Positions 2,928 to 19,671 of a DNA stretch of 34,982 bases are shown piece after piece. Each line of letters begins with the position of its first letter. Position 1 is the stretch's first letter. A program made the position numbers and the translations under genes. This DNA comes from a virus: IMG/VR virus record IMGVR_UViG_3300027759_000020, positions 1-34,982 of that record. One strand, written 5' to 3'. A model generated the notes under the pieces. It was not told where the DNA came from, did no database searches, and was given only the letters and a program-made list of their open reading frames with translations.

Positions 2928-3273
2928 CCCCTATTGTTATTGGTTCATACAAAGGATCGTACCAAATACATTTGTCTTCATCAAAGACATATTCATCGCC
3001 ATTTGGTCTTGGTGCTATAAAAGCATCACGCTGTGCGTCATAAGAATAACCAATAGCAGCGTAGTTTTTACGAAAAGGTGTTCCACCCAAACTATGCGTA
3101 TTTGCATAAGTGTTGTAGCTTGTTTGAATCCAGCGCCCGCCTAATAAATTTTCACAAAACGCAATTCCACAGGCTTCGCTTGGGGCGCCGCTTTCATCTA
3201 AAGTGCTTTCGTCATTTACAACAATAACTCGAAGCACAATATTGTTGCTATCTAATTCCGCAAAGTGAGCCAT
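2914..3273 (-). CDS. Conserved phage protein of unknown function (MAHFAELD family)
   Basis: A 119-aa protein starting MAHFAELDSNNIVLRVIVVN and containing GGRWIQTSYNTYANTH, FRKNYAAIGYSYDAQRDAFI and a C-terminal CIWYDPLYEP. This pattern is very common in cyanophages and other aquatic phages, usually beside tail-fibre genes, with no known function. The start at 3273 overlaps the upstream stop as TAATG and has GGAG upstream. A longer form from 3288 (MEIPI) is less likely. The compact, aromatic-rich beta character suggests a virion part such as a fibre connector. Confidence 0.75.
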   Translation of the reverse strand: MAHFAELDSNNIVLRVIVVNDESTLDESGAPSEACGIAFCENLLGGRWIQTSYNTYANTHSLGGTPFRKNYAAIGYSYDAQRDAFIAPRPNGDEYVFDEDKCIWYDPLYEPITIGVERV

Positions 3274-8357: not shown

Positions 8358-9880
8358 GAACCCATCCAAGAAGTTGCACTTTCAGCCGAGCCAGCATACA
8401 CCCGCCGCGTAGTTTGTTTATTGTACTCTCTGTGCGCCACAGGAAAAGCAAACGTCACGCAGATAGCGTCTGCTGCGTCTGGTGAGGCAAGGCCGCGCGC
8501 TTTCATGTCTTTTTTAGATTCCAAAAAGATTGTTCCACGTGAATCAGGCTTCATCATAGGCGAAATTAAATCAGTTTTCAAGAACCGATCATTAGGAATA
8601 CTGGCCGTTTTCAGCCATTCCCGCATGTCACCCCACATCTGTGCCCGCATATTACCGTACATAACTGGGTTTTTAGACTTATTGCCAAAGTTCACGCCCT
8701 TGATCTTGTACCGCTGCTCTTTTAAGCGGTCGACAATCCCTGCGCCTAAGCCGCCTTCGTCAATAACCACCAGTGTGGGCTTGAATTCCTCAATTGCTTC
8801 GATCACATACCCCACCACCGTCATGGTGTCGTCGCCCCGATGCCGCATTATCTTGACAATATCGCGCCCTTGCCTGACAGCTATCACGGTTGCGTCCGCA
8901 CCAAACCGTGCGGGGTCTACGCCGATCACAATCGGCGCGCTCAAATCCTGATATTTCGTCCTGGCCATAGCGTCGTCCACCACGTTAGCCCCGATGAACT
9001 GGTCATCCCCCGCGTTGGGAAACTGACCGTACACCTCGACGTGCGATTGTGCTGAGTCTGGCCCGTATTCGTCAATGATGCGCTGATAAACCGCCTTGTC
9101 GGTGCCCTCAACCGTGCGGGCGTCCACCACGCGGGTTTTCCAAAAGTCCCGCTTACTGTGGAAAGCCTCGTAAAAGTACCCCGTATTGCGCCGTGGGTTG
9201 CTAAAAGCCATCCAAAAACGATTCGGCGTGTTTTCCGTAAAGAAGCCACCTGTCACCGCCCAGATTGAGTCGTCAATACCAGACGCCTCATCAAAGATCA
9301 CCATTACACCGTCAAAGTTGTGCACACCCGCGTAAGCGTCGGGGTTCTCCGCTGACCACAGCCGCCCTTCAACGCCCCAGTAACGTGTGCCCTTTTTCAA
9401 ATCCCGCTCGACTAGCTCAGTCAGCCACTTGGCAGGCATCACTCTGGTAGCCGACACCTCAAACCAGTGCGAGTTAATTGCCATCGCCAGCCACTTTGTG
9501 ATCTCGGCCCAGGTGATACTGCGTAGTTGGGACTCTGAGTTAGCCGACACAATGGTCGTCGAGCCGATCCGCGTGGTCATCATCCAGATCACCAACCAAC
9601 TGACCAACGCCGACTTACCAATACCACGGCCAGACGAAATAGCTTCTTGCAATACACCAAAGTCCATCTTGCCTTGGTTGAGCTTGATGTGCTCCGCAAT
9701 ATCCAGCAGCACCTCGCGCTGCCATTTGCGCGGGCCGGAGAAGTTTTCCAGCGGCGTACCCTTGACGCCCCAAGGGAAGGTAAGCATTACAAACGCCAGC
9801 GGATTGTCTTTGATCTGTGGACTCCACAGTCTGGCCATCAGTTCCTGTTCATCTTCAGCGCTGTAGATGGTGCTCTGCAT
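8354..9880 (-). CDS. terL: Terminase large subunit (packaging ATPase-nuclease)
   Basis: A 508-aa motor protein that pumps DNA into the procapsid and cuts concatemers. The ATPase half has a Walker A-type loop at residues 82-91 (SSGRGIGKSA), Walker B and catalytic Glu at 191-198 (GVMVIFDE), and a coupling-type segment around SNPRRNTGYF. The RNase H-like nuclease half shows the three acidic positions: Asp322 (IGVDPARFG), Asp374 (VVIDEGGLG) and the Asp468/Asp471 region (ASPDAADAI). All key residues appear intact. The gene overlaps terS by 26 bp. The headful or cohesive mode cannot be read directly, but P22-type context favours headful packaging. Confidence 0.95.
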   Translation of the reverse strand: MQSTIYSAEDEQELMARLWSPQIKDNPLAFVMLTFPWGVKGTPLENFSGPRKWQREVLLDIAEHIKLNQGKMDFGVLQEAISSGRGIGKSALVSWLVIWMMTTRIGSTTIVSANSESQLRSITWAEITKWLAMAINSHWFEVSATRVMPAKWLTELVERDLKKGTRYWGVEGRLWSAENPDAYAGVHNFDGVMVIFDEASGIDDSIWAVTGGFFTENTPNRFWMAFSNPRRNTGYFYEAFHSKRDFWKTRVVDARTVEGTDKAVYQRIIDEYGPDSAQSHVEVYGQFPNAGDDQFIGANVVDDAMARTKYQDLSAPIVIGVDPARFGADATVIAVRQGRDIVKIMRHRGDDTMTVVGYVIEAIEEFKPTLVVIDEGGLGAGIVDRLKEQRYKIKGVNFGNKSKNPVMYGNMRAQMWGDMREWLKTASIPNDRFLKTDLISPMMKPDSRGTIFLESKKDMKARGLASPDAADAICVTFAFPVAHREYNKQTTRRVYAGSAESATSWMGS

Positions 9881-10319
9881 GTGCTTCTTGCTCTAGGTGA
9901 GGACTCGGTTCATGGGCCAATACGTCAATGACGCGGGACTCTGCTTGGCGCAAAGCGCCCAGGATTGAGATGCGCTGGTCAACATCAATGCTGATGGACT
10001 GCTTGGCCACCCAGCCGTGCGAGTGTTGCAGGATTGCCAGCGCCGCTTTGGCGTCGCCTTCTTTGGCTGCTTTGTGCAAGCACATGGACATTTCCAACTC
10101 GCCGTCAGCTTTTCCCTTAAGCGCCGCCATGTCTGCTATGGGGTCTAGCTCACACAATTGGCGGTACTCGGTTGGCAACATGCCGGAGGCCAGCGCCAAC
10201 GCGTCGCCTTTAAGGCCAAGCTTGGCAGCTTCGTAGATTTTATTTAACCGTGCTTCGGTTGCAACAACCTTGCGCGGCTCAAATGGAAGACTGTGAAACA
10301 TTTGCGAATTGTAGGTCAT
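9855..10319 (-). CDS. terS: Terminase small subunit
   Basis: A 154-aa helical protein directly upstream of terL. The N-terminal region (RLNKIYEAAKLGLKGDALAL, ASGMLPTEYRQLCELDP) looks like the helix-turn-helix DNA-binding part of phage small terminases. The middle (ALKGKADGELEMSMCLHKAA, KEGDAKAALAILQHSHGW) is the usual oligomerisation region. It would recognise the packaging site and load TerL. It is the first late gene, next to the 657-bp control region. No clear Shine-Dalgarno lies before ATG 10319 nor before an in-frame ATG six codons later. Confidence 0.8.
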   Translation of the reverse strand: MTYNSQMFHSLPFEPRKVVATEARLNKIYEAAKLGLKGDALALASGMLPTEYRQLCELDPIADMAALKGKADGELEMSMCLHKAAKEGDAKAALAILQHSHGWVAKQSISIDVDQRISILGALRQAESRVIDVLAHEPSPHLEQEAHAEHHLQR

Positions 10320-10416
10320 GTAGGCAATTTAAAAAATAAAAAAAAATTGTTCGTAAACCCTTCGTCACCGGCTGGCCCTGTCGTCGGCCCTGCCACCCCC
10401 CACCCCCGACCACTAA

Positions 10417-10604
10417 GTTAGTAAGCGCTAACTAACAACCTTAAGTTAGTGAGTGCTAACTAACATAGCTAAGTTAGTGCTTACTAACTTAAGCGAAGTG
10501 AGTACACACTAACTTAACTTCGGGGTGGTAGGTTAGTGGCCACTAACATAGCTAAGTTAGTGACTACTAACATGGCCATTTGACCTAAGTTAGTGGCCAC
10601 TAAC
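10417..10604. repeat. Array of seven 16-bp palindromes, GTTAGTnnnnACTAAC
   Basis: Copies start at 10417, 10445, 10473, 10498, 10532, 10556 and 10589. Copies 3, 5, 6 and 7 have both half-sites perfect. Copies 5 and 7 are full palindromes with a GGCC centre. Copies 1 and 2 have five-base arms (GTTAG/CTAAC), and copy 4 has one mismatch. Spacing is 28, 28, 25, 34, 24 and 33 bases. Such arrays are typical of iterons at origins or of cooperative operators bound by a dimeric protein. The binding protein is not identified. Confidence 0.9.
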
Positions 10605-10805
10605 ATGATGGCCATATAGTTATCAAAACCATAATGTAGGCAATGTAGGCAATATTGTCATATGGTTTTAGTCGCTGGCTAAACGTGCACCCATACCTAA
10701 TTATTAGCTATTAAGTATTACATATATTTTTTGATTGTCTCAAACAAAACAAATGACAATATGACCTACAAAACAGCAAAAACCTAGTATCCATGCGGCC
10801 TACAC

Positions 10806-10857
10806 GTGGGCAATTCTCGGACCGTGCAACTTGCCCACAACTTGCCCAACTTGCCCA
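10806..10857. repeat. Cluster of TTGCCCA repeats
   Basis: Three direct copies of ACTTGCCCA start at 10829, 10840 and 10849, and one inverted copy (GTGGGCAA) lies at 10806-10813. They are 34 to 85 bases before the early promoter. The CCCACA part also matches the arm of the inverted repeat at 10923-10948, so one regulator could bind both. Function inferred. Confidence 0.65.
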
Positions 10858-10890
10858 CACCGAATAGGGTAAACACCTAGAAAATAAGTG

Positions 10891-10919
10891 TTGACAATTG
10901 CAAGGCAATGCCTTACATT
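10891..10919 (+). promoter_or_regulatory. Strong sigma70-type early promoter
   Basis: A perfect -35 TTGACA (10891-10896), a 17-base spacer and a -10 TACATT (10914-10919, four of six matches) point rightward into the early genes. The transcript would start about 10926. It is the best promoter seen in the window and should be read by host RNA polymerase at once after infection. Confidence 0.75.
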
Positions 10920-10922
10920 ATG

Positions 10923-10948
10923 TGTGTGGGCGCGAAATGACCCACACA
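10923..10948. promoter_or_regulatory. Operator-like inverted repeat over the early start site
   Basis: TGTGTGGG (10923-10930), ten bases, then CCCACACA (10941-10948) form a perfect 8-bp inverted repeat covering the predicted transcription start. It could be a repressor operator that shuts the early promoter, or a 5' RNA hairpin just upstream of the first early leader. The sequence alone does not decide between these. Confidence 0.6.
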
Positions 10949-10976
10949 ATCAACTAACCTAAACGAAAGTAAAACC

Positions 10977-11165
10977 ATGACAAAATCAGAATCAAACGAA
11001 ATTAAAAAAACCGTGCAATATTTCGCAGCCGGTTTAGGCTTAGATTATTTGGCGCGCGCATTGTCCGCGATCCATCGCGCAGCGCGCGGCCAAGATACCA
11101 AGCGCGCTATTGAAGCGCTGGCCACCGAGCACAGCATCACACAGCACCCCGAATTTAAAATCTAA
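10977..11165 (+). CDS. First early gene, 62-aa unknown protein
   Basis: A 62-aa helical protein (MTKSESNEIKKTVQYFAAGL, GLDYLARALSAIHRAARGQD, then TKRAIEALATEHSITQ). No family recognised. It is the first gene after the strong early promoter, with a leader carrying ACTAAC and CGAAAGT. Small early proteins in this position often act on host polymerase or other host targets, but nothing in the sequence proves that. The gene is followed by a GC-rich hairpin. Confidence 0.65.
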   Translation: MTKSESNEIKKTVQYFAAGLGLDYLARALSAIHRAARGQDTKRAIEALATEHSITQHPEFKI

Positions 11166-11170
11166 ACCCC

Positions 11171-11191
11171 GGCCCGGCGCGCAGCCGGGCC
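11171..11191. other. GC-rich intergenic hairpin 1
   Basis: GGCCCGGC, five bases, GCCGGGCC: a perfect 8-bp stem between the first and second early genes. No T-run follows on the plus strand (ACCAAAATAAA), so it is probably not a full terminator. It may mark an mRNA end or a processing point. Confidence 0.6.
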
Positions 11192-11225
11192 ACCAAAATA
11201 AACTTAACTAAACGAAAGTCACACA

Positions 11226-11885
11226 ATGCAAGTACATCTAACACTTAAAAGCGCGAACGTCAAAACCGGCCCGATACCGGTTAGCACCACCGAAAAAACC
11301 TCATGCCCGCCGGATTGTGCCGTGCGCGACGCATGCTATGCGGCCAGCGGCCCGCTCGCATTGCATTGGGCCGCAGTGTCAAACGGCACGCGTGGCACGT
11401 CATGGGGCCAATTTGTGGCCACCATTGCAGCGCTGCCCGCTGGCCAATTGTGGCGCCACAATCAAGCGGGTGATCTGCCCCAGGTCGACGGCACCGTTGA
11501 CGCGGTAAAGCTTGGCCAATTGGTGGCCGCGAATGCTGGCCGTCGCGGGTTTACTTATTCACACCACCGCGACGCGGCCTCAATTGCATGGATTAGACAC
11601 GCGAATGCATGGGGTTTCACCGTAAACCTAAGCGCGAATGATTTGGCCGACGCCGACGCGCTGGCCGATCACGCGGCCGGTCCGGTGGTGGTGGTGTTAC
11701 CGTCAACCACCACACAAAACACCACCACACCGGCCGGGCGCGCTGTGGTTATTTGCCCGGCCACGCAACGCGATGACGTGAGCTGCGCGACGTGCCAATT
11801 GTGTCAACGTCAACGCGCGGCCATTGTCGGTTTTCCGGCCCACGGTACGCGTAAGCGCGTTATAGATATCAAATTGGCCGCGTAA
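11226..11885 (+). CDS. Cysteine-rich early protein (gp88/DUF7227-like)
   Basis: A 219-aa protein with an N-terminal C-x3-C-x5-C (Cys27, 31, 37; SCPPDCAVRDACYA) and a C-terminal C-x9-C-x2-C-x2-C cluster (ICPATQRDDVSCATCQLCQ), plus RHNQAGDLP, FTYSHHRD and the closing GFPAHGTRKR. This layout matches a widespread phage and plasmid family sometimes labelled gp88 or DUF7227. Two cysteine clusters with a central alpha/beta region suggest a metal- or Fe-S-binding protein of TIM-barrel type. The C-x3-C-x5-C is not the classical radical-SAM motif. The exact job is unknown. Codon use is very GC-rich, like the following small genes. It has its own leader like the first early gene. Confidence 0.6.
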   Translation: MQVHLTLKSANVKTGPIPVSTTEKTSCPPDCAVRDACYAASGPLALHWAAVSNGTRGTSWGQFVATIAALPAGQLWRHNQAGDLPQVDGTVDAVKLGQLVAANAGRRGFTYSHHRDAASIAWIRHANAWGFTVNLSANDLADADALADHAAGPVVVVLPSTTTQNTTTPAGRAVVICPATQRDDVSCATCQLCQRQRAAIVGFPAHGTRKRVIDIKLAA

Positions 11886-11896
11886 TGCTTGACTGT

Positions 11897-11917
11897 ATGC
11901 GGCCACACCGGCCGCAT
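11897..11917. other. GC-rich intergenic hairpin 2
   Basis: ATGCGGCC, five bases, GGCCGCAT: a perfect 8-bp stem just after the cysteine-rich gene. It has the same stem and loop sizes as hairpin 1 and lacks a strong T-run. It precedes the third copy of the early leader motif. Confidence 0.6.
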
Positions 11918-11959
11918 ATGGGCGCGTATTTGCGTCGATTAACTAACCGAAAGTAAATT

Positions 11960-12178
11960 ATGAACACGAAAGATAGGCACAATTTGGCGGACGCGTATAT
12001 GTCCGCATGGCATGCGGTGAAGGGCGCGCATGATCGCATGGTAATTAATCCGGAGGCCAATGGCTGGTATGAAATTATTCAAACCACCGGATCGACGCGC
12101 ACCGCGCGCCGCGTCCGTTGCGCCGCGCTTTTAAGCGGATTGGCCGCGCTGGCTGCTCAATTGGAAAGGGCCGCGTAA
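11960..12178 (+). CDS. 72-aa unknown early protein
   Basis: A 72-aa protein (MNTKDRHNLADAYMSAWHAV ... RRVRCAALLSGLAALAAQLE), mostly helical, with a short middle part GWYEIIQTTGSTRTARR. No family recognised. It is the third early gene with the ACTAAC-CGAAAGT leader. Its stop overlaps the next start (TAATG), and from here on all genes to 13561 are tightly coupled. Confidence 0.6.
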   Translation: MNTKDRHNLADAYMSAWHAVKGAHDRMVINPEANGWYEIIQTTGSTRTARRVRCAALLSGLAALAAQLERAA

Positions 12179-12420
12179 TGCAAAAACTAAAATTTAATGT
12201 CGGTGATAACGTGGCATTCGCGCGTCACGTCGTTAAGCGCTTAGGCCACGATAAACCCACGGCCGACGCGCGCGGCCATGTTGTGGCCGTTGACGGCCCG
12301 GTGGTGGCCGTTGACTTCGCGGGCACGTGGGCACCACACGAAAACGGTGGCACCGTGCGCCACGTGCCAGCGGGTAATTTGACAAAAATTATGTCGAATG
12401 GGGTGGTTTATGACTATTAA
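12178..12420 (+). CDS. 80-aa SH3/KOW-like small protein
   Basis: An 80-aa protein from ATG 12178 (MQKLKFNVGDNVAFARHVVK), then GHVVAVDGPVVAVDFAGTWA and a C-terminal HVPAGNLTKI. The FNVGDNVAF ... GHVVAVDGPVVAVDF pattern looks like a small SH3-type barrel as in KOW-type proteins. Binding partner unknown. A longer ORF starting at 12118 is only a frame extension; the TAATG overlap fixes the start. Confidence 0.62.
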   Translation: MQKLKFNVGDNVAFARHVVKRLGHDKPTADARGHVVAVDGPVVAVDFAGTWAPHENGGTVRHVPAGNLTKIMSNGVVYDY

Positions 12421-12646
12421 AACAATGATCGCAAAATACCCCGGCCGCGATGCGCGGACCGGCGCGCCTATACGGCCAGGCGACGAAATACATTACGACA
12501 CGGCCACGCGTAAGGCATGGATAACCGACGAAGACGACCGGCCGCGCACGTATCGATCCGACGTTTTCCAATTTAGTGGCCACGAATACTACCAAAACAA
12601 AAACGGCCGGTGCATCGACGCGCCATGTTGCGGGTGCTGCTCATGA
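12410..12646 (+). CDS. 78-aa unknown protein with Cys-rich tail
   Basis: A 78-aa protein (MTIKTMIAKYPGRDARTGAP, then IRPGDEIHYDTATRKAWITD) ending CIDAPCCGCCS. Five cysteines are packed in the last eleven residues, suggesting metal binding or disulfide-type chemistry. The start has GGGGTGG upstream and overlaps the previous gene by 11 bases. No family recognised. Confidence 0.58.
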   Translation: MTIKTMIAKYPGRDARTGAPIRPGDEIHYDTATRKAWITDEDDRPRTYRSDVFQFSGHEYYQNKNGRCIDAPCCGCCS

Positions 12647-12801
12647 TCGATAAACCCGAAACCCTACGCGAAGCGCTTGAAGCGCTTATTTTCTACGCCG
12701 ACCAGGCGGCGCCGGACCTGCCCGACACGGCCAGGGTCGAGGGCCTAGCGTATGCGATGGACCGCGCGCGCGAAGCGCTGGCCAGGGAGCAGGCGCCATG
12801 A
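12643..12801 (+). CDS. 52-aa helical unknown protein
   Basis: A 52-aa protein, MIDKPETLREALEALIFYAD then QAAPDLPDTARVEGLAYAMD and ending EALAREQAP. Two amphipathic helices are likely. The start overlaps the previous stop and its own stop overlaps the next start, both as ATGA, strong evidence of translational coupling. Function unknown. Confidence 0.58.
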   Translation: MIDKPETLREALEALIFYADQAAPDLPDTARVEGLAYAMDRAREALAREQAP

Positions 12802-12953
12802 CCTATTACATGACGAAAGCGGCCGCGCAAGCATTGGCCGACGAACTAACTAACCAGGATCGCGACGCGTGGCGGTATGAAGTACACGGGGCCGCGCGCG
12901 GGTTTTACGTCGCGGTATTTGACGACGACGGCCACTTTTTGGGGAACCTATGA
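12798..12953 (+). CDS. 51-aa unknown protein
   Basis: A short ORF starting MTYYMTKAAAQALADELTNQ and ending FYVAVFDDDGHFLGNL. A helix followed by two beta strands is likely. ATGA overlaps on both sides support it. Function unknown. Confidence 0.55.
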   Translation: MTYYMTKAAAQALADELTNQDRDAWRYEVHGAARGFYVAVFDDDGHFLGNL

Positions 12954-13033
12954 AAGATTATTTTGCTGCTTTGATAATCGCGGCCGCGCTGTGCGCGCTG
13001 GCCTTGGAATATTTTGACGTTTTGATTAAATAA
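12950..13033 (+). CDS. 27-aa single-span membrane peptide
   Basis: A very short ORF, MKDYFAALIIAAALCALALE and then YFDVLIK. Residues 6-19 are hydrophobic and could cross the inner membrane. It overlaps the previous stop (ATGA). Its size leaves some doubt, although coupling supports it. Confidence 0.45.
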   Translation: MKDYFAALIIAAALCALALEYFDVLIK

Positions 13034-13042
13034 GGGGAAATT

Positions 13043-13339
13043 ATGAAAATTATCATTTTGGGGAAAACACGCTACACCGTGCGCGACGATCGCACGGACA
13101 TTATGGCCGCGCATGCTAAGTGCACCGGTAAGCATAAGCGGGTGAAGTCTAAAGGGGCAGAGAAGCGCTTATATCCGCCATACTGGGCCGAAACGTCAAC
13201 GGCCGAATACGTGGCCGCATATGAGAAGTTGAATTCTAAAATTATGCCGTGGGACTGGCAGGCGTTGCGCGCCGATCCATGCATGGCCCCAGTGGGTGAA
13301 GATAGTATGTGGGAGGTCGACCATGCATCCGATATTTAA
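13043..13339 (+). CDS. 98-aa basic unknown protein
   Basis: A 98-aa protein (MKIIILGKTRYTVRDDRTDI, then a basic stretch CTGKHKRVKSKGAEKRLYPP) with a Trp-rich C-terminal half (IMPWDWQALRADP). The ATG has a strong AAGGGG ribosome site. No family recognised. The Lys/Arg patch at residues 27-42 might bind nucleic acid. Confidence 0.6.
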   Translation: MKIIILGKTRYTVRDDRTDIMAAHAKCTGKHKRVKSKGAEKRLYPPYWAETSTAEYVAAYEKLNSKIMPWDWQALRADPCMAPVGEDSMWEVDHASDI

Positions 13340-13511
13340 ACAAGCGCTGGCCCCTTGGACACCACCGGCGCCACCGGTAACGCTGGCCACCGGTCGCGTG
13401 GTGGTGCATACTAGGCAACCGAACGGGTCGCAGTTGGCCACACCGACACCGGGCCCTAAAGAAATGACCCCGGCCGAATGGGCCGAATACAAGGGGACCG
13501 TATGGCGATAA
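13323..13511 (+). CDS. 62-aa proline-rich unknown protein
   Basis: A 62-aa protein from ATG 13323 (MHPIFKQALAPWTPPAPPVT) ending PAEWAEYKGTVWR, with a GGAGGT ribosome site. It overlaps the previous gene by 17 bases. Proline makes up much of residues 11-18 and 42-55. No family recognised. Confidence 0.55.
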   Translation: MHPIFKQALAPWTPPAPPVTLATGRVVVHTRQPNGSQLATPTPGPKEMTPAEWAEYKGTVWR

Positions 13512-13561
13512 TTTGCGCGGTCATTTTGGCCGCTATAATTGCTGTACTGCTTGGTTTATAG
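13502..13561 (+). CDS. Possible 19-aa membrane peptide
   Basis: A minimal ORF, MAIICAVILAAIIAVLLGL, entirely hydrophobic. It overlaps the previous gene's end by 10 bases and stops 20 bases before the terminator. It could be a tiny membrane peptide, the last gene of the early unit. The short length means it may be chance. Confidence 0.3.
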   Translation: MAIICAVILAAIIAVLLGL

Positions 13562-13580
13562 CAGTTGCCAAAACCCTCAC

Positions 13581-13608
13581 GGGCCCCTTAACAGGGGCCC
13601 TTTTTTTT
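13581..13608 (+). terminator. Rho-independent terminator of the early unit
   Basis: GGGCCCCT, loop TAAC, AGGGGCCC and then eight T. A perfect 8-bp GC-rich stem with a full T-run, reading rightward. The T-run touches the stop codon of the convergent primase gene. Confidence 0.92.
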
Positions 13609-15871
13609 ACCCTTCGACCATGTCGCGCAGATCTGATTTGCTGGCGCGCGCATGTTCAGGGGCGCAAAATATATGTTTTTTGGTGCCATGCGTACGCGAC
13701 GCGACGCGGCCCATGTCGACCCAGTTGGCCTCCTTCAGCGCGTGCAGCAGCGCTGCCTGCACTATCTTGACCCCACTGGGGGCCATGCCTTGCAGGCGGT
13801 CGCATACACCGTGGAAGGGGGAGGCGATGGCGCCACGCGAGAATTCACCGACGCGGCGGCGCAGTTGGTCGACCAGGAATGACTCGGCCGTGCTCATGCC
13901 GTGCTCGACCATGATGGCCTTGGCCTCGGTCATGGGGGGCGGCGCGCTGGGGTTCCAATCTGACACGTCGCGGGTGTGTAGGTAATGGGCGACGGCCTCA
14001 AAACCACCACGGTGCTGGTACCAGTTCCACAAGCTCACGGCCTGAGCTTCTGGCAATTTAAGGGCCGCGCACCATATGACGAACCACCGGCGGTCCTCAC
14101 TGGGGAGCGATATGGCCACGCGCTCATTTGAGAATGCAATTACAAAAACACGGTTCAGGGCCATGTAGGGATGCAGGCCCTTACGGTTGACCATGAGAAG
14201 CTCAGGGGGCGCTGCAATGATGGGTTTTAGGGTGTTTTCTAATGCGCGGCGGTCCTTGGCCTCTGATTGGCGAAGCTCTGCAATTTCCATCACTTCGCAT
14301 TCCAGCGCATAGCCCCACTGGGAGTTAAGGTCTTCGTTTTTGACCAGGGAGCAATTGGTCTTGGCGTCGCCACCAATGGCCCAAAAGAAGGGGGCGAAGA
14401 GGGTGTCTTTGCCACTGCCGTGGTTGCCACCCATCAGGATAGCGTGGTTGATCTTATGGGCGGGGAATTGGACCTTATGCGCCAGCGCGTTGAGTAGGTG
14501 CTCGCGCTCAAACTGCTCAGGCACCATGCGCTCGACGTGCGCCAGCCACATGGACACGTCACCGGCTGCGGGTGCGGGGCGGGCGTTGCGCCAGCGGTTA
14601 CCGTAAACCAGGCCGTCGCGGGCGACCAGGATGGTCGCGCCTGCTGCGTAGGTGATACCGGCCAGCGCTTTGGCTCCCTTAGCTTGGCGGTTTTCGTCGA
14701 ACGACGTAGCGGCCTCAACGCGGCGCTTGGCATTGTGAACCGACTTGCAGTCGATATGCCGAAACAAAGCGTTGAAGGTATACCGGCTGATTTCGCGGCG
14801 GTCCTGCATGTCAAAAAATGCGTCGTCTGCTTGGACGTACGCAAAGCGGTTCCACCACTCTGACTTCTCAATGCGGCCAAGCTCTTTGCGCTCGACCTCG
14901 GCGACGATTTTGGCCGCTTCGTTGGGGTATTCGACCGTGGGGGTGATCTTGGACAGTGCCGCGTCCATCGCCTGCGCCAGCAATTCTTCACGCAGGCCGG
15001 GGGTGTGGGCGGGGCCGTCATTGTCGGCCACCCACTGCAAAAACAAGCGGGAGTCAAAGTCTACGCAGTGCGAGTGCAGGCAACAATATGCGCGGTTGGC
15101 GGGCATGTAGCGGCCTTCGGGGTTGCCGTCGCTGTGCTCTGCTGAGTTGGGGCAGATCACGCCAGCCCAGCCCTCACCGTTGGGTCTAGACAGCAGCAGG
15201 CCCTGCTGGGACAGCCACGCCATGACGTCGTCGGCGCCATCATCGGACAGCCTGATGGGGCGTAGGGTGAGCGAGTCGGCCTCGACCGGCACCACACCCA
15301 AAGCGGTGCAGATGTCAGTCAGGGTGTAGTCACGATCAGGGTGGAACTCGACCAAGCGGGACTCAAATTGGTTGCGCTCAGGCTTCAAATTAACCGAGCC
15401 TGGGAGCCTGAAGTTACGCACAGGGTTGCAGGCGCCTGGGTCGGTGTAGCCTGCATCAGCAATGGCGCGAATGGCGGCGCTGAACTCGGTTTTGGTCGGC
15501 TGCTCACTGAAGACGTAGCCCCACTGGAAGGAACCCTCGGACGTTTCCATAATCCAAGTGGGCGCAAGCGGGGGCGTCTTGGATTTGGTGCCGATGTCGT
15601 CCAGCATCATCACCAGGATGTACTCGCAATTGACTGCTGACGCTGACACGCGGCCATCGGTAAAGCGGTCAACAATAAAGCTAGCGGTGTTGCCGTACCA
15701 TGCTTGGCCTGCCTTGGTGCCCTTGGTGGGTAAGTGCGCTGGCCATGTGCACTTGACTGCGCCGTCGGCGTGGAGTTGAATTTCGCCGTTTTTCAACTGT
15801 GGTTTTTGATGCACAATAAGTGCAGTCTCGCCGGTCGGGGCGAGTTTTATGATAAAGTCCAAAAAGTTCAA
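13607..15871 (-). CDS. Primase-helicase (RepB-like/AEP primase plus SF3-type helicase)
   Basis: A 754-aa replication protein. The N-terminal 200 residues look like an archaeo-eukaryotic/RepB-type primase, with the acidic motif LVMMLDDIG at 86-94 and a VRNFRLPGSVNLK box (151-163) typical of this fold. A Cys/His cluster (Cys240, His246, Cys263, Cys264, His268, Cys269) forms a zinc-binding region. The C-terminal half is a DUF5906/VapE-like ATPase with Walker A GGNHGSGKDT at 481-490, followed by a wing-like DNA-binding end. The start is TTG 15871, preceded by AGGGAG at good spacing. Last gene of the replication unit, convergent with the early genes. Confidence 0.85.
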   Translation of the reverse strand: MNFLDFIIKLAPTGETALIVHQKPQLKNGEIQLHADGAVKCTWPAHLPTKGTKAGQAWYGNTASFIVDRFTDGRVSASAVNCEYILVMMLDDIGTKSKTPPLAPTWIMETSEGSFQWGYVFSEQPTKTEFSAAIRAIADAGYTDPGACNPVRNFRLPGSVNLKPERNQFESRLVEFHPDRDYTLTDICTALGVVPVEADSLTLRPIRLSDDGADDVMAWLSQQGLLLSRPNGEGWAGVICPNSAEHSDGNPEGRYMPANRAYCCLHSHCVDFDSRLFLQWVADNDGPAHTPGLREELLAQAMDAALSKITPTVEYPNEAAKIVAEVERKELGRIEKSEWWNRFAYVQADDAFFDMQDRREISRYTFNALFRHIDCKSVHNAKRRVEAATSFDENRQAKGAKALAGITYAAGATILVARDGLVYGNRWRNARPAPAAGDVSMWLAHVERMVPEQFEREHLLNALAHKVQFPAHKINHAILMGGNHGSGKDTLFAPFFWAIGGDAKTNCSLVKNEDLNSQWGYALECEVMEIAELRQSEAKDRRALENTLKPIIAAPPELLMVNRKGLHPYMALNRVFVIAFSNERVAISLPSEDRRWFVIWCAALKLPEAQAVSLWNWYQHRGGFEAVAHYLHTRDVSDWNPSAPPPMTEAKAIMVEHGMSTAESFLVDQLRRRVGEFSRGAIASPFHGVCDRLQGMAPSGVKIVQAALLHALKEANWVDMGRVASRTHGTKKHIFCAPEHARASKSDLRDMVEG

Positions 15872-18474: not shown

Positions 18475-19602
18475 TTATTGAAGTTTAGAGAGGGCAGCGG
18501 TCAATTGCTTACCCAAGATCATCACTTCGGGGCGCGGGTCGTCTGCGCTGGCCAAAGTGTTACCCGAAGAGATGGCGACGACTAGATCGTCCGGCAATGC
18601 CTTCTTGCGCTTTTTGAGCGCCTTTTCAGCCTTGGCCGGAGAGACTATCGAAGTCTCCATCACTTCAGATTCTGTCAGACCGAACGCAAACAAAGCGACC
18701 TTAGCCTTGTCTTCGTCAGTCCATTGTCTGATGGCACGTTTGGCCACCAACTTGTAGTCGGGGAGTCTTGCGCCTGAGTCAAGCATCTGCAACGCTAAGG
18801 CTCGCAAGTCAGTGATCCACTGCTCTAGCATATCAGCATTCTTTAAATACGCGCTGATTGTGGGCGCGTCCAAACCATCGATGCTGGTCTTCAAAGCGCG
18901 GTCTACTGCGCCGGTCATCTGTGGGCAGATGGGCTTGGCCGCGCACCAGCGGCAGTGGTCGCCGATCTTCAGTTCAGCATTCGGTTGTTGCGCCAGCTTG
19001 ACTGCTTTTATCAAGTCTTTTTCAAACTGGGCAATGCGAGCGGGTGTGGTCACCCAGCGCTTGACTTGGGGTGGCTGCACGATCACGCATTCGATTTCTT
19101 CGACACCATCAAACGCCCACTTGGTTTCTTCGGTACGCATGGCGGCAGCGGCGTAGAACATCAGTTGCGGATTTTCTTCTACCTCTACAGCAACGCCGTC
19201 GCCAAACTTCCAATCAAGTACAACAGCGCGTTTGCCAATGCGACCGATAAGATCAGTGCTACCAAACACGTCAGGTAGTAAATCGCCAAAGCCAACGCGT
19301 GTTTCAGCTTCAATTTCCATCTCCTTGTTGGGGTCGATTACGTCCAGCGCCGCAAGGGCTGGCACCAGCTTGTTGTCGATCAATTCCAAGGTAAGGATTT
19401 GATCGTTGTACTTGGTGTGCAAAAACTCTTCAGGGTGTTTGTCCGACATCACAAGTTCAGCGATGACGTTGTGCAACAGCGTACCCTCATCGGCGTACTT
19501 GTTGCTGGGCTGGGGTGGCATCTTTTGCACCAAGGCTACTGAGCCTGGGCAGTTCATAACACGCTTGGCGGTTGAGCCGCCGACAATATTACTGTGGTTC
19601 AC
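18475..19602 (-). CDS. DUF2800-like PD-(D/E)XK nuclease (Cas4/RecB type)
   Basis: A 375-aa protein with nuclease-fold residues: His44 (EGTLLHNVIAEL), Asp117 (DVFGSTDLIG), Asp130 and Lys132 (VVLDWKFG), and Gln146/Tyr150 (NPQLMFYAAA). Four cysteines, Cys18 near the start and Cys217, 220 and 226 (DHCRWCAAKPICP), can hold an Fe-S cluster, as in Cas4 and AddB-type enzymes. It belongs to the DUF2800 group seen beside phage polymerases. It probably trims or recombines DNA during replication. First gene of the leftward unit, with an AAGGAG ribosome site. Confidence 0.85.
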   Translation of the reverse strand: MNHSNIVGGSTAKRVMNCPGSVALVQKMPPQPSNKYADEGTLLHNVIAELVMSDKHPEEFLHTKYNDQILTLELIDNKLVPALAALDVIDPNKEMEIEAETRVGFGDLLPDVFGSTDLIGRIGKRAVVLDWKFGDGVAVEVEENPQLMFYAAAAMRTEETKWAFDGVEEIECVIVQPPQVKRWVTTPARIAQFEKDLIKAVKLAQQPNAELKIGDHCRWCAAKPICPQMTGAVDRALKTSIDGLDAPTISAYLKNADMLEQWITDLRALALQMLDSGARLPDYKLVAKRAIRQWTDEDKAKVALFAFGLTESEVMETSIVSPAKAEKALKKRKKALPDDLVVAISSGNTLASADDPRPEVMILGKQLTAALSKLQ

Positions 19603-19671
19603 TGAACTCTCCTTTAGTTGATTGAGACTGAACTATAGCATAGAAAATAAAACTGTGCTAAACTTTTTGAC
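19603..19671. promoter_or_regulatory. Divergent promoter region
   Basis: This 69-base AT-rich gap separates the leftward replication unit from the rightward VRR-NUC unit. On the minus strand TGCTATAGT (19640-19632) is an extended -10 with five of six matches. On the plus strand TTGATT (19618-19623), 17 bases and TAGAAA (19641-19646) form a weaker promoter. The two overlap, so transcription in one direction may hinder the other. Confidence 0.5.

Follow-up and report, generated by a model that had tools for sequence, protein, structure and literature searches.

The leader of phage T7 gene 10 consists of a hairpin, an unstructured A/U-rich stretch and a Shine-Dalgarno sequence, in this order, and its hairpin presumably lies at +1. 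T7 also carries hairpins between its early genes, where the early RNA is cut by RNase III, an enzyme whose stems as a rule span about two helical turns. In one report on Cupriavidus necator (PMC6146998), adding the gene 10 stem-loop gave 1.5- to 3-fold more reporter protein with three ribosome sites; the stem-loop or the A/U-rich stretch before the Shine-Dalgarno sequence each raised reporter mRNA, and the A/U-rich stretch raised protein significantly with only one of the three ribosome sites. According to a second report, a 5' hairpin impedes RppH and stabilizes bla mRNA, and other messages did not respond (PMC3997798). The nearest described pattern is that of the SAS and ESAS repeats of cluster K mycobacteriophages, as outlined in PMC3203893. 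PMC12699233 places these repeats a few bases before the start codons of some non-structural genes, and close upstream of about half of them lies an inverted repeat. SAS consists of 13 bp in a fixed sequence, ESAS is an imperfect repeat of 17 bp for which a consensus exists, and both stay with gene families. Phage DSL-LC05 (OR003940) has a near-identical leader, CCGTAACCGTAAAGGAACC, before three small genes. Our literature search, mostly at the level of listings, found no paper on the leaders described below.

The window, that is, the whole stretch of DNA analysed here, is the 34,982-base virus record IMGVR_UViG_3300027759_000020. On its + strand, a run of small genes, which we infer to be early genes, has a promoter at its front and is closed by a terminator-like stem with a T run (Table 1). 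Each of the first three genes is preceded by a hairpin and a leader; past these three, the genes are mostly overlapping or near-touching neighbours. Three 8-bp inverted repeats and three CGAAAGT leaders had been listed by the first-pass annotation, and all of them are present at the positions it gave. Genes 1 and 3 matched no protein family in the family libraries searched. The DUF7227 protein encoded by gene 2 is common to many Pseudomonas phages (PAK_P1 etc.), cyanophages and a Roseobacter phage (181 records).

Table 1. Features of the small-gene run and its three leaders in the window
Feature	Position	Strand	Remarks
Sigma-70-type promoter TTGACA-17-TACATT	10891..10919	+	10/12 consensus bases; same place in relatives
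19-bp imperfect dyad TGCAAGG-N5-CCTTACA	10899..10917	.	In promoter spacer; candidate operator; arm-swap test
Hairpin 1, predicted transcript 5' end	10923..10948	+	Arms TGTGTGGG (10923-10930) and CCCACACA (10941-10948); stem GTGGG/CCCAC from +1
Predicted transcription start	10926	+	Inferred from promoter spacing
Leader 1	10949..10976	+	Unstructured AATCAACTAACCTAAA, then CGAAAGT (10964-10970)
Gene 1	10977..11165	+	62 aa; start of small-gene run, which extends to about 13560
Hairpin 2	11171..11191	+	8 bp, arms GGCCCGGC (11171-11178) and GCCGGGCC (11184-11191); 5 nt past gene 1 stop codon
Leader 2	11192..11225	+	With AACTAAACGAAAGT; CGAAAGT at 11213-11219
Gene 2	11226..11885	+	DUF7227 protein (PF23872, phrog_2554)
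Hairpin 3	11893..11921	+	Arms ATGCGGCC (11897-11904) and GGCCGCAT (11910-11917); 12 bp (11893-11904 with 11910-11921) incl. two G-U pairs; 7 nt past gene 2 stop codon
Second hairpin of leader 3, GCGC-GTATTT-GCGT	11922..11935	+	Small; alternative to longer outer stem
Leader 3	11936..11959	+	With AACTAACCGAAAGT; CGAAAGT at 11948-11954
Gene 3	11960..12178	+	72 aa
Terminator-like stem with T run	13581..13600		Closes small-gene run

Hairpin, unstructured A/U-rich stretch and Shine-Dalgarno sequence come in the same order as in the T7 gene 10 leader, and for copy 1, by its predicted start, the likeness extends to the place of the hairpin at the transcript 5' end. The window differs from T7 in that the leader is repeated before three genes and has another sequence, two of the copies lie inside the operon, each behind a stop codon, and the promoter is of the host type rather than a phage polymerase promoter. 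The leaders also differ from SAS and ESAS: here only fold and layout are constant, the stem is free to vary in sequence, and the unit goes with the slot and not with the gene family. The 13-bp SAS sequence GGGATAGGAGCCC had no match in the window with up to 2 changes allowed, and no ESAS-type 17-bp inverted repeat with a shared consensus was found, the stems differing between copies and relatives. In DSL-LC05 no hairpin was seen at the CCGTAACCGTAAAGGAACC leaders, which also have another sequence; its three genes lie at 1929-2735 of the record, and its promoter spacer has ACCC-AGT-GGGT. By analogy, the leaders of the window would work like the T7 gene 10 leader; we class them as a variant of phage start-associated leaders and not as members of SAS or ESAS.

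Folded individually, hairpins 2 and 3 are more stable than each of 200 shuffles (z -3.7 and -3.6). Hairpin 1, folded from the predicted start, is weak alone (z -1.8, with 12 of 200 shuffles equally good), and its case therefore rests on relatives. No + strand site resembling an intrinsic terminator (GC stem and T run) was found at the three hairpins. Rfam gave no match above the gathering cut-off in 13 sources, and in the window region 10300-13650 nothing fell on the three hairpins with E up to 10.

Relatives were collected by DUF7227 and DNA polymerase A searches of virus contigs, which yielded 80 loci each, with some contigs in both. MW202483, the named record that comes closest in its terminase and polymerase, carries a hairpin leader before one gene; at about 2958-3008 a 10-bp hairpin lies over one gene's end and is followed by leader and ATG, and no promoter with a hairpin at +1 occurs in the stretch read. 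Curvibacter phage P26059B, under the accession that we take to be its own, is an Autographivirus whose layout differs, and it was set aside. A perfect stem of at least 6 pairs starting at +1 to +3 is present in 23 of 61 distinct promoters, and others have broken stems. When a 5-base arm was slid along 58 promoters, none of them excluded, a downstream complement was found in 20 from +1 and in 22 from +2; the counts were 8-11 at -3 to -1, 13 at +3 and 9 at +4, and only 0-4 when the arm began at -6 to -4 or at +5 to +9. The arm met its complement in 29 of the 58 in its own sequence, as compared to a mean of 11.2 and a maximum of 20 in 500 swaps. The arms themselves are diverse, including GTGGG, GTAGGTCG, CTGGCTTG, CTGACGC, ACTGGGT, CCGCGCG and CATGGC. 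Hairpin 1 thus appears as a fold locked in position and free in sequence, which would fit an RNA 5' hairpin and not an operator. The same promoter stands before a first gene without hairpin in L005, L006, L009, L012, L148 and L152. Unbiased RNAalifold on the aligned leaders 1 and 2 returned no consensus pairs, probably owing to differing loop lengths; the hairpin 1 alignment left out 11 promoter sequences that were hairpin-less or of other groups, the hairpin 2 alignment consisted of 23 hand-picked leaders, and for leader 1 the position-locked swap test took the place of RNAalifold.

Ahead of DUF7227, a hairpin scores above 95% of shuffles in 27 of 69 distinct leaders, a few of them probably by chance. 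Often, these leaders run from a GC-rich hairpin through an A/C/U-rich stretch like TCAATCAACTAA to CGAAAGT or TAAAGG and the ATG. Another group of relatives has a gene of about 32 codons coupled to DUF7227, and there it is this small gene that the hairpin leader precedes. Of 69 distinct stretches that follow DUF7227, 35 were counted as having hairpin 3: 37 reached 8 bp or more, four of these (L020, L036, L052 and L057) were dropped as judged to lie in coding sequence, and L012 and L059 with 7 bp were added. Among these 35 sequences 90.8% of cells are paired, compared to 76.1% in shuffles, a share raised by their having been picked for a hairpin. Double-change cells number 60 against 16.9 in shuffles (0 of 500 reached this value), a slid partner gave at most 10, and both sides changed in 9 of 12 pairs. 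An unaided consensus fold also finds the core of hairpin 3, with 6 of 7 pairs doubly changed. The share of G-U among the non-Watson-Crick cells, 0.53 as compared to a shuffled mean of 0.37 and maximum of 0.41, points to RNA. We conclude from these comparisons that the hairpins are RNA structures under selection, at fixed places, while their stem sequence varies. Whether leaders diverge freely in relatives, a point on which the first-pass annotation had staked its proposal, has a divided answer: the stems diverge in sequence, whereas structure and layout are kept.

A covariance model built from the hairpin 3 sequences was searched against 79 sources, which are not all the loci. It produced 42 matches, 11 of which coincided with sense matches as their antisense images and were disregarded. 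The 31 sense matches, in 25 of the sources and with up to three per contig, are partly non-independent since the sources overlap training loci (e.g. L087/L006, L097/L010 and L098/L047); each of the 31 is followed, 7-17 nt past its end, by an ATG that opens a frame of 28 codons or more. In L154, three copies of hairpin 3 stand before three different genes at 8827-10059, and TGGAGT replaces GAAAG.

Hairpins between genes raise the question of processing. Like the T7 early RNA, the operon message could be cut at hairpins 2 and above all 3 to give single-gene messages, which we regard as unlikely but worth keeping in mind. In its favour, 15 of the 35 sequences have a minimum-energy fold in which the hairpin 3 region forms a single imperfect stem of 16-22 pairs, the stem taking in the previous stop codon in 10 of these, and each of the 31 model matches stands just before a start codon. 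In the remaining sequences the core stem forms, accompanied in almost all cases by a small second hairpin. Against it, the window itself folds in this latter way, with 12 pairs in hairpin 3 plus the second hairpin; hairpin 2 with its 8 pairs is short for RNase III, and hairpin 1, at the 5' end, would need no cut.

The same folds bear on a role in translational operon control, in which a phage or host protein would bind the hairpins and shut or open the genes together. A similar leader precedes all three genes (our family D5), and hairpin 3 can adopt either of two folds that exclude each other, between which a terminating ribosome or a protein could switch it; at the place of its second hairpin, many relatives have a small hairpin of other sequence. 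The stems, however, differ among the three hairpins and among relatives and the loops are not conserved, so that a protein could read little more than shape, and no candidate binding protein was identified. This makes joint control by a bound protein very unlikely in our judgement.

The leader goes with the operon slot and not with the gene filling it. Grouped by blastp at 1e-3 with single linkage, the 60 proteins behind the promoter, some of these promoters being hairpin-less, fall into 22 families, and the 33 behind hairpin 3 (slot 3) into 12. Families F4 and F5, whose window members begin at 12178 and 12410 and have no such leader there, fill slot 3 in relatives. For the two families together, a hairpin of at least 9 bp precedes 17 of 18 slot-3 cases versus 5 of 47 elsewhere, with L017 and L018 being near copies and the cut-off chosen afterwards: 7 bp had been tried first and failed to separate the slots, 23 of 38 later F5 copies passing. 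The family of window gene 3 (F3) is placed in front of DUF7227 in L058 and L062, where its leader is of the type seen at that place. Hairpin conservation and slot data thus support the earlier suggestion of a separate, cassette-like leader unit for each of the three genes, and covariation, G-U excess and position lock make control at the RNA level the most plausible form of it. That gene families change slot while the leader stays would also be expected if the shared leaders were recombination joints for swapping small genes between slots. Here selection keeps the fold while the sequence diverges, and recombination needs sequence, not fold; a joint function is extremely unlikely, and recombination via leaders may be a by-product.

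Regulation at the DNA level was weighed as well, in the form of a regulator that binds the inverted repeats or ACTAAC half-sites as operators. Between the terminase operon and the early promoter (10417-10604) lie seven to eight GTTAGTNNNNACTAAC palindromes, and ACTAAC had been read as a half-site of this array recognized by a regulator. This link is rejected: ACTAAC occurs in 4 of 25 leaders at array-bearing loci and in 12 of 66 without array (counted among loose-pattern leaders at loci with a DUF7227 start at 1600 or later), GTTAGT palindromes are found at least twice in 24 of 161 sequences, and several loci carry leader modules without the array. Hairpin 1 does overlap the transcription start, and the dyad in the promoter spacer, TGYAAGG-N5-CCTTACA in relatives, does resemble an operator. 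Over 58 promoters, its arms show complementarity at 5.17 of 7 positions, as compared to a mean of 4.72 and a maximum of 5.09 in 2000 arm swaps; kept in relatives, it is a candidate operator of a repressor. For the leaders themselves, varying arms between copies and relatives, the G-U pair excess, complementarity beginning at +1 and the missing tie of ACTAAC to the array leave DNA operators barely credible.

Other elements were noted near the promoters of the window. Two TTGCCCACA plus a variant TTGCCCAAC at 10831-10859, which we take to resemble DnaA boxes, mark a possible origin; DnaA-box-like words number 3 in the window versus 1.1 expected, which is not significant. In L020, TTGTCCACA runs lie ahead of its early genes. 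The replication operon on the minus strand has a promoter-like region with an imperfect dyad around TAGCACA...TATGCTA (19602-19665), and its leader TCAATCAACTAAAGGAGAGT is without hairpin.

All three CGAAAGT motifs end 5-6 nt before the ATG. CGAAAGT alone is not rare, with 4 occurrences in the window versus 4.8 expected; AACTAA-N(1-5)-CGAAAGT has 2 matches versus 0.02 expected, the gap in leader 1 being longer than this pattern allows. The last 20 bases of the three leaders have equal anti-Shine-Dalgarno pairing energy, -4.6 kcal/mol (GAAAG with CUUUC), as compared to a mean of -1.5 kcal/mol (sd 1.4) in their shuffles. GAAAG had been proposed as an unusual ribosome site. A ribosome site it is, and because it pairs with the CUUUC end of the CCUCCUUUCU anti-Shine-Dalgarno tail, it is a weak variant of the usual Shine-Dalgarno sequence and not an unusual site. 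The tail CCTCCTTTCT was taken from one genome, of the same family as a Rhodoferax MAG, where it was read in two 16S copies. A genome scan with the polymerase as a route to the host reached 5 metagenome-assembled contigs (Rhodoferax, Armatimonadetes, a proteobacterium, an actinobacterium and Beijerinckiaceae) and gave no safe host call. Relatives have CGAAGGG, TAAAGG, GGAAAGT or TGGAGT in the place of GAAAG. The stretch ahead of the Shine-Dalgarno sequence is predicted to be unstructured and A/U-rich, leader 3 having an alternative weak pairing. On the other strand, the leader of the exonuclease gene, ATCAACTAAAGGAGAGTTCA, has a like layout with a strong site (-9.4 kcal/mol).

Together, we favour as the probable explanation one kind of mRNA 5' leader in which a hairpin shields or insulates each message, and an open stretch with a modest Shine-Dalgarno sequence gives independent and similar translation per slot. 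The unit would consist of the hairpin, about 15-25 unstructured A/C/U-rich bases and a modest Shine-Dalgarno sequence 5-6 nt before the ATG. With copy 1 at the transcription start, the message would open with the hairpin; copies 2 and 3 come immediately behind the stop codon of the previous gene. From the hairpin-stretch-Shine-Dalgarno order of the T7 gene 10 leader and the RppH effect, protection of the 5' end may be proposed for copy 1, and it would extend to copies 2 and 3 if the message were cut upstream of them. By the same analogies, copies 2 and 3 would insulate against the sequence upstream of them and may also be processed. Neither of them lies at any known transcript 5' end, and internal RNA processing there is plausible. 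The hairpin would set the ribosome site apart both from the sequence upstream and from translation termination at the preceding stop codon, the unstructured stretch would keep the site open, and the modest Shine-Dalgarno sequence would set initiation. Each small gene would then be translated independently and at a similar, moderate rate, whatever gene fills the slot; the overlapping or near-touching genes downstream seem to use coupling or stronger Shine-Dalgarno sequences. A bolder and doubtful version makes the promoter-hairpin and stop-hairpin leaders standing expression slots that swap unrelated small, probably host-directed genes, and makes leader 3 a switch, thrown by the terminating ribosome or a phage protein between two exclusive folds involving the previous stop codon.

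For the biology of these phages, the finding matters in that a structured leader persists among diverse uncultured freshwater phages and is tied to operon position. It may help to explain how phages take in new small early genes without adjusting them one by one. As a marker, the leader could be used for short early genes missed by gene callers, and a portable leader for expression work is a testable idea.
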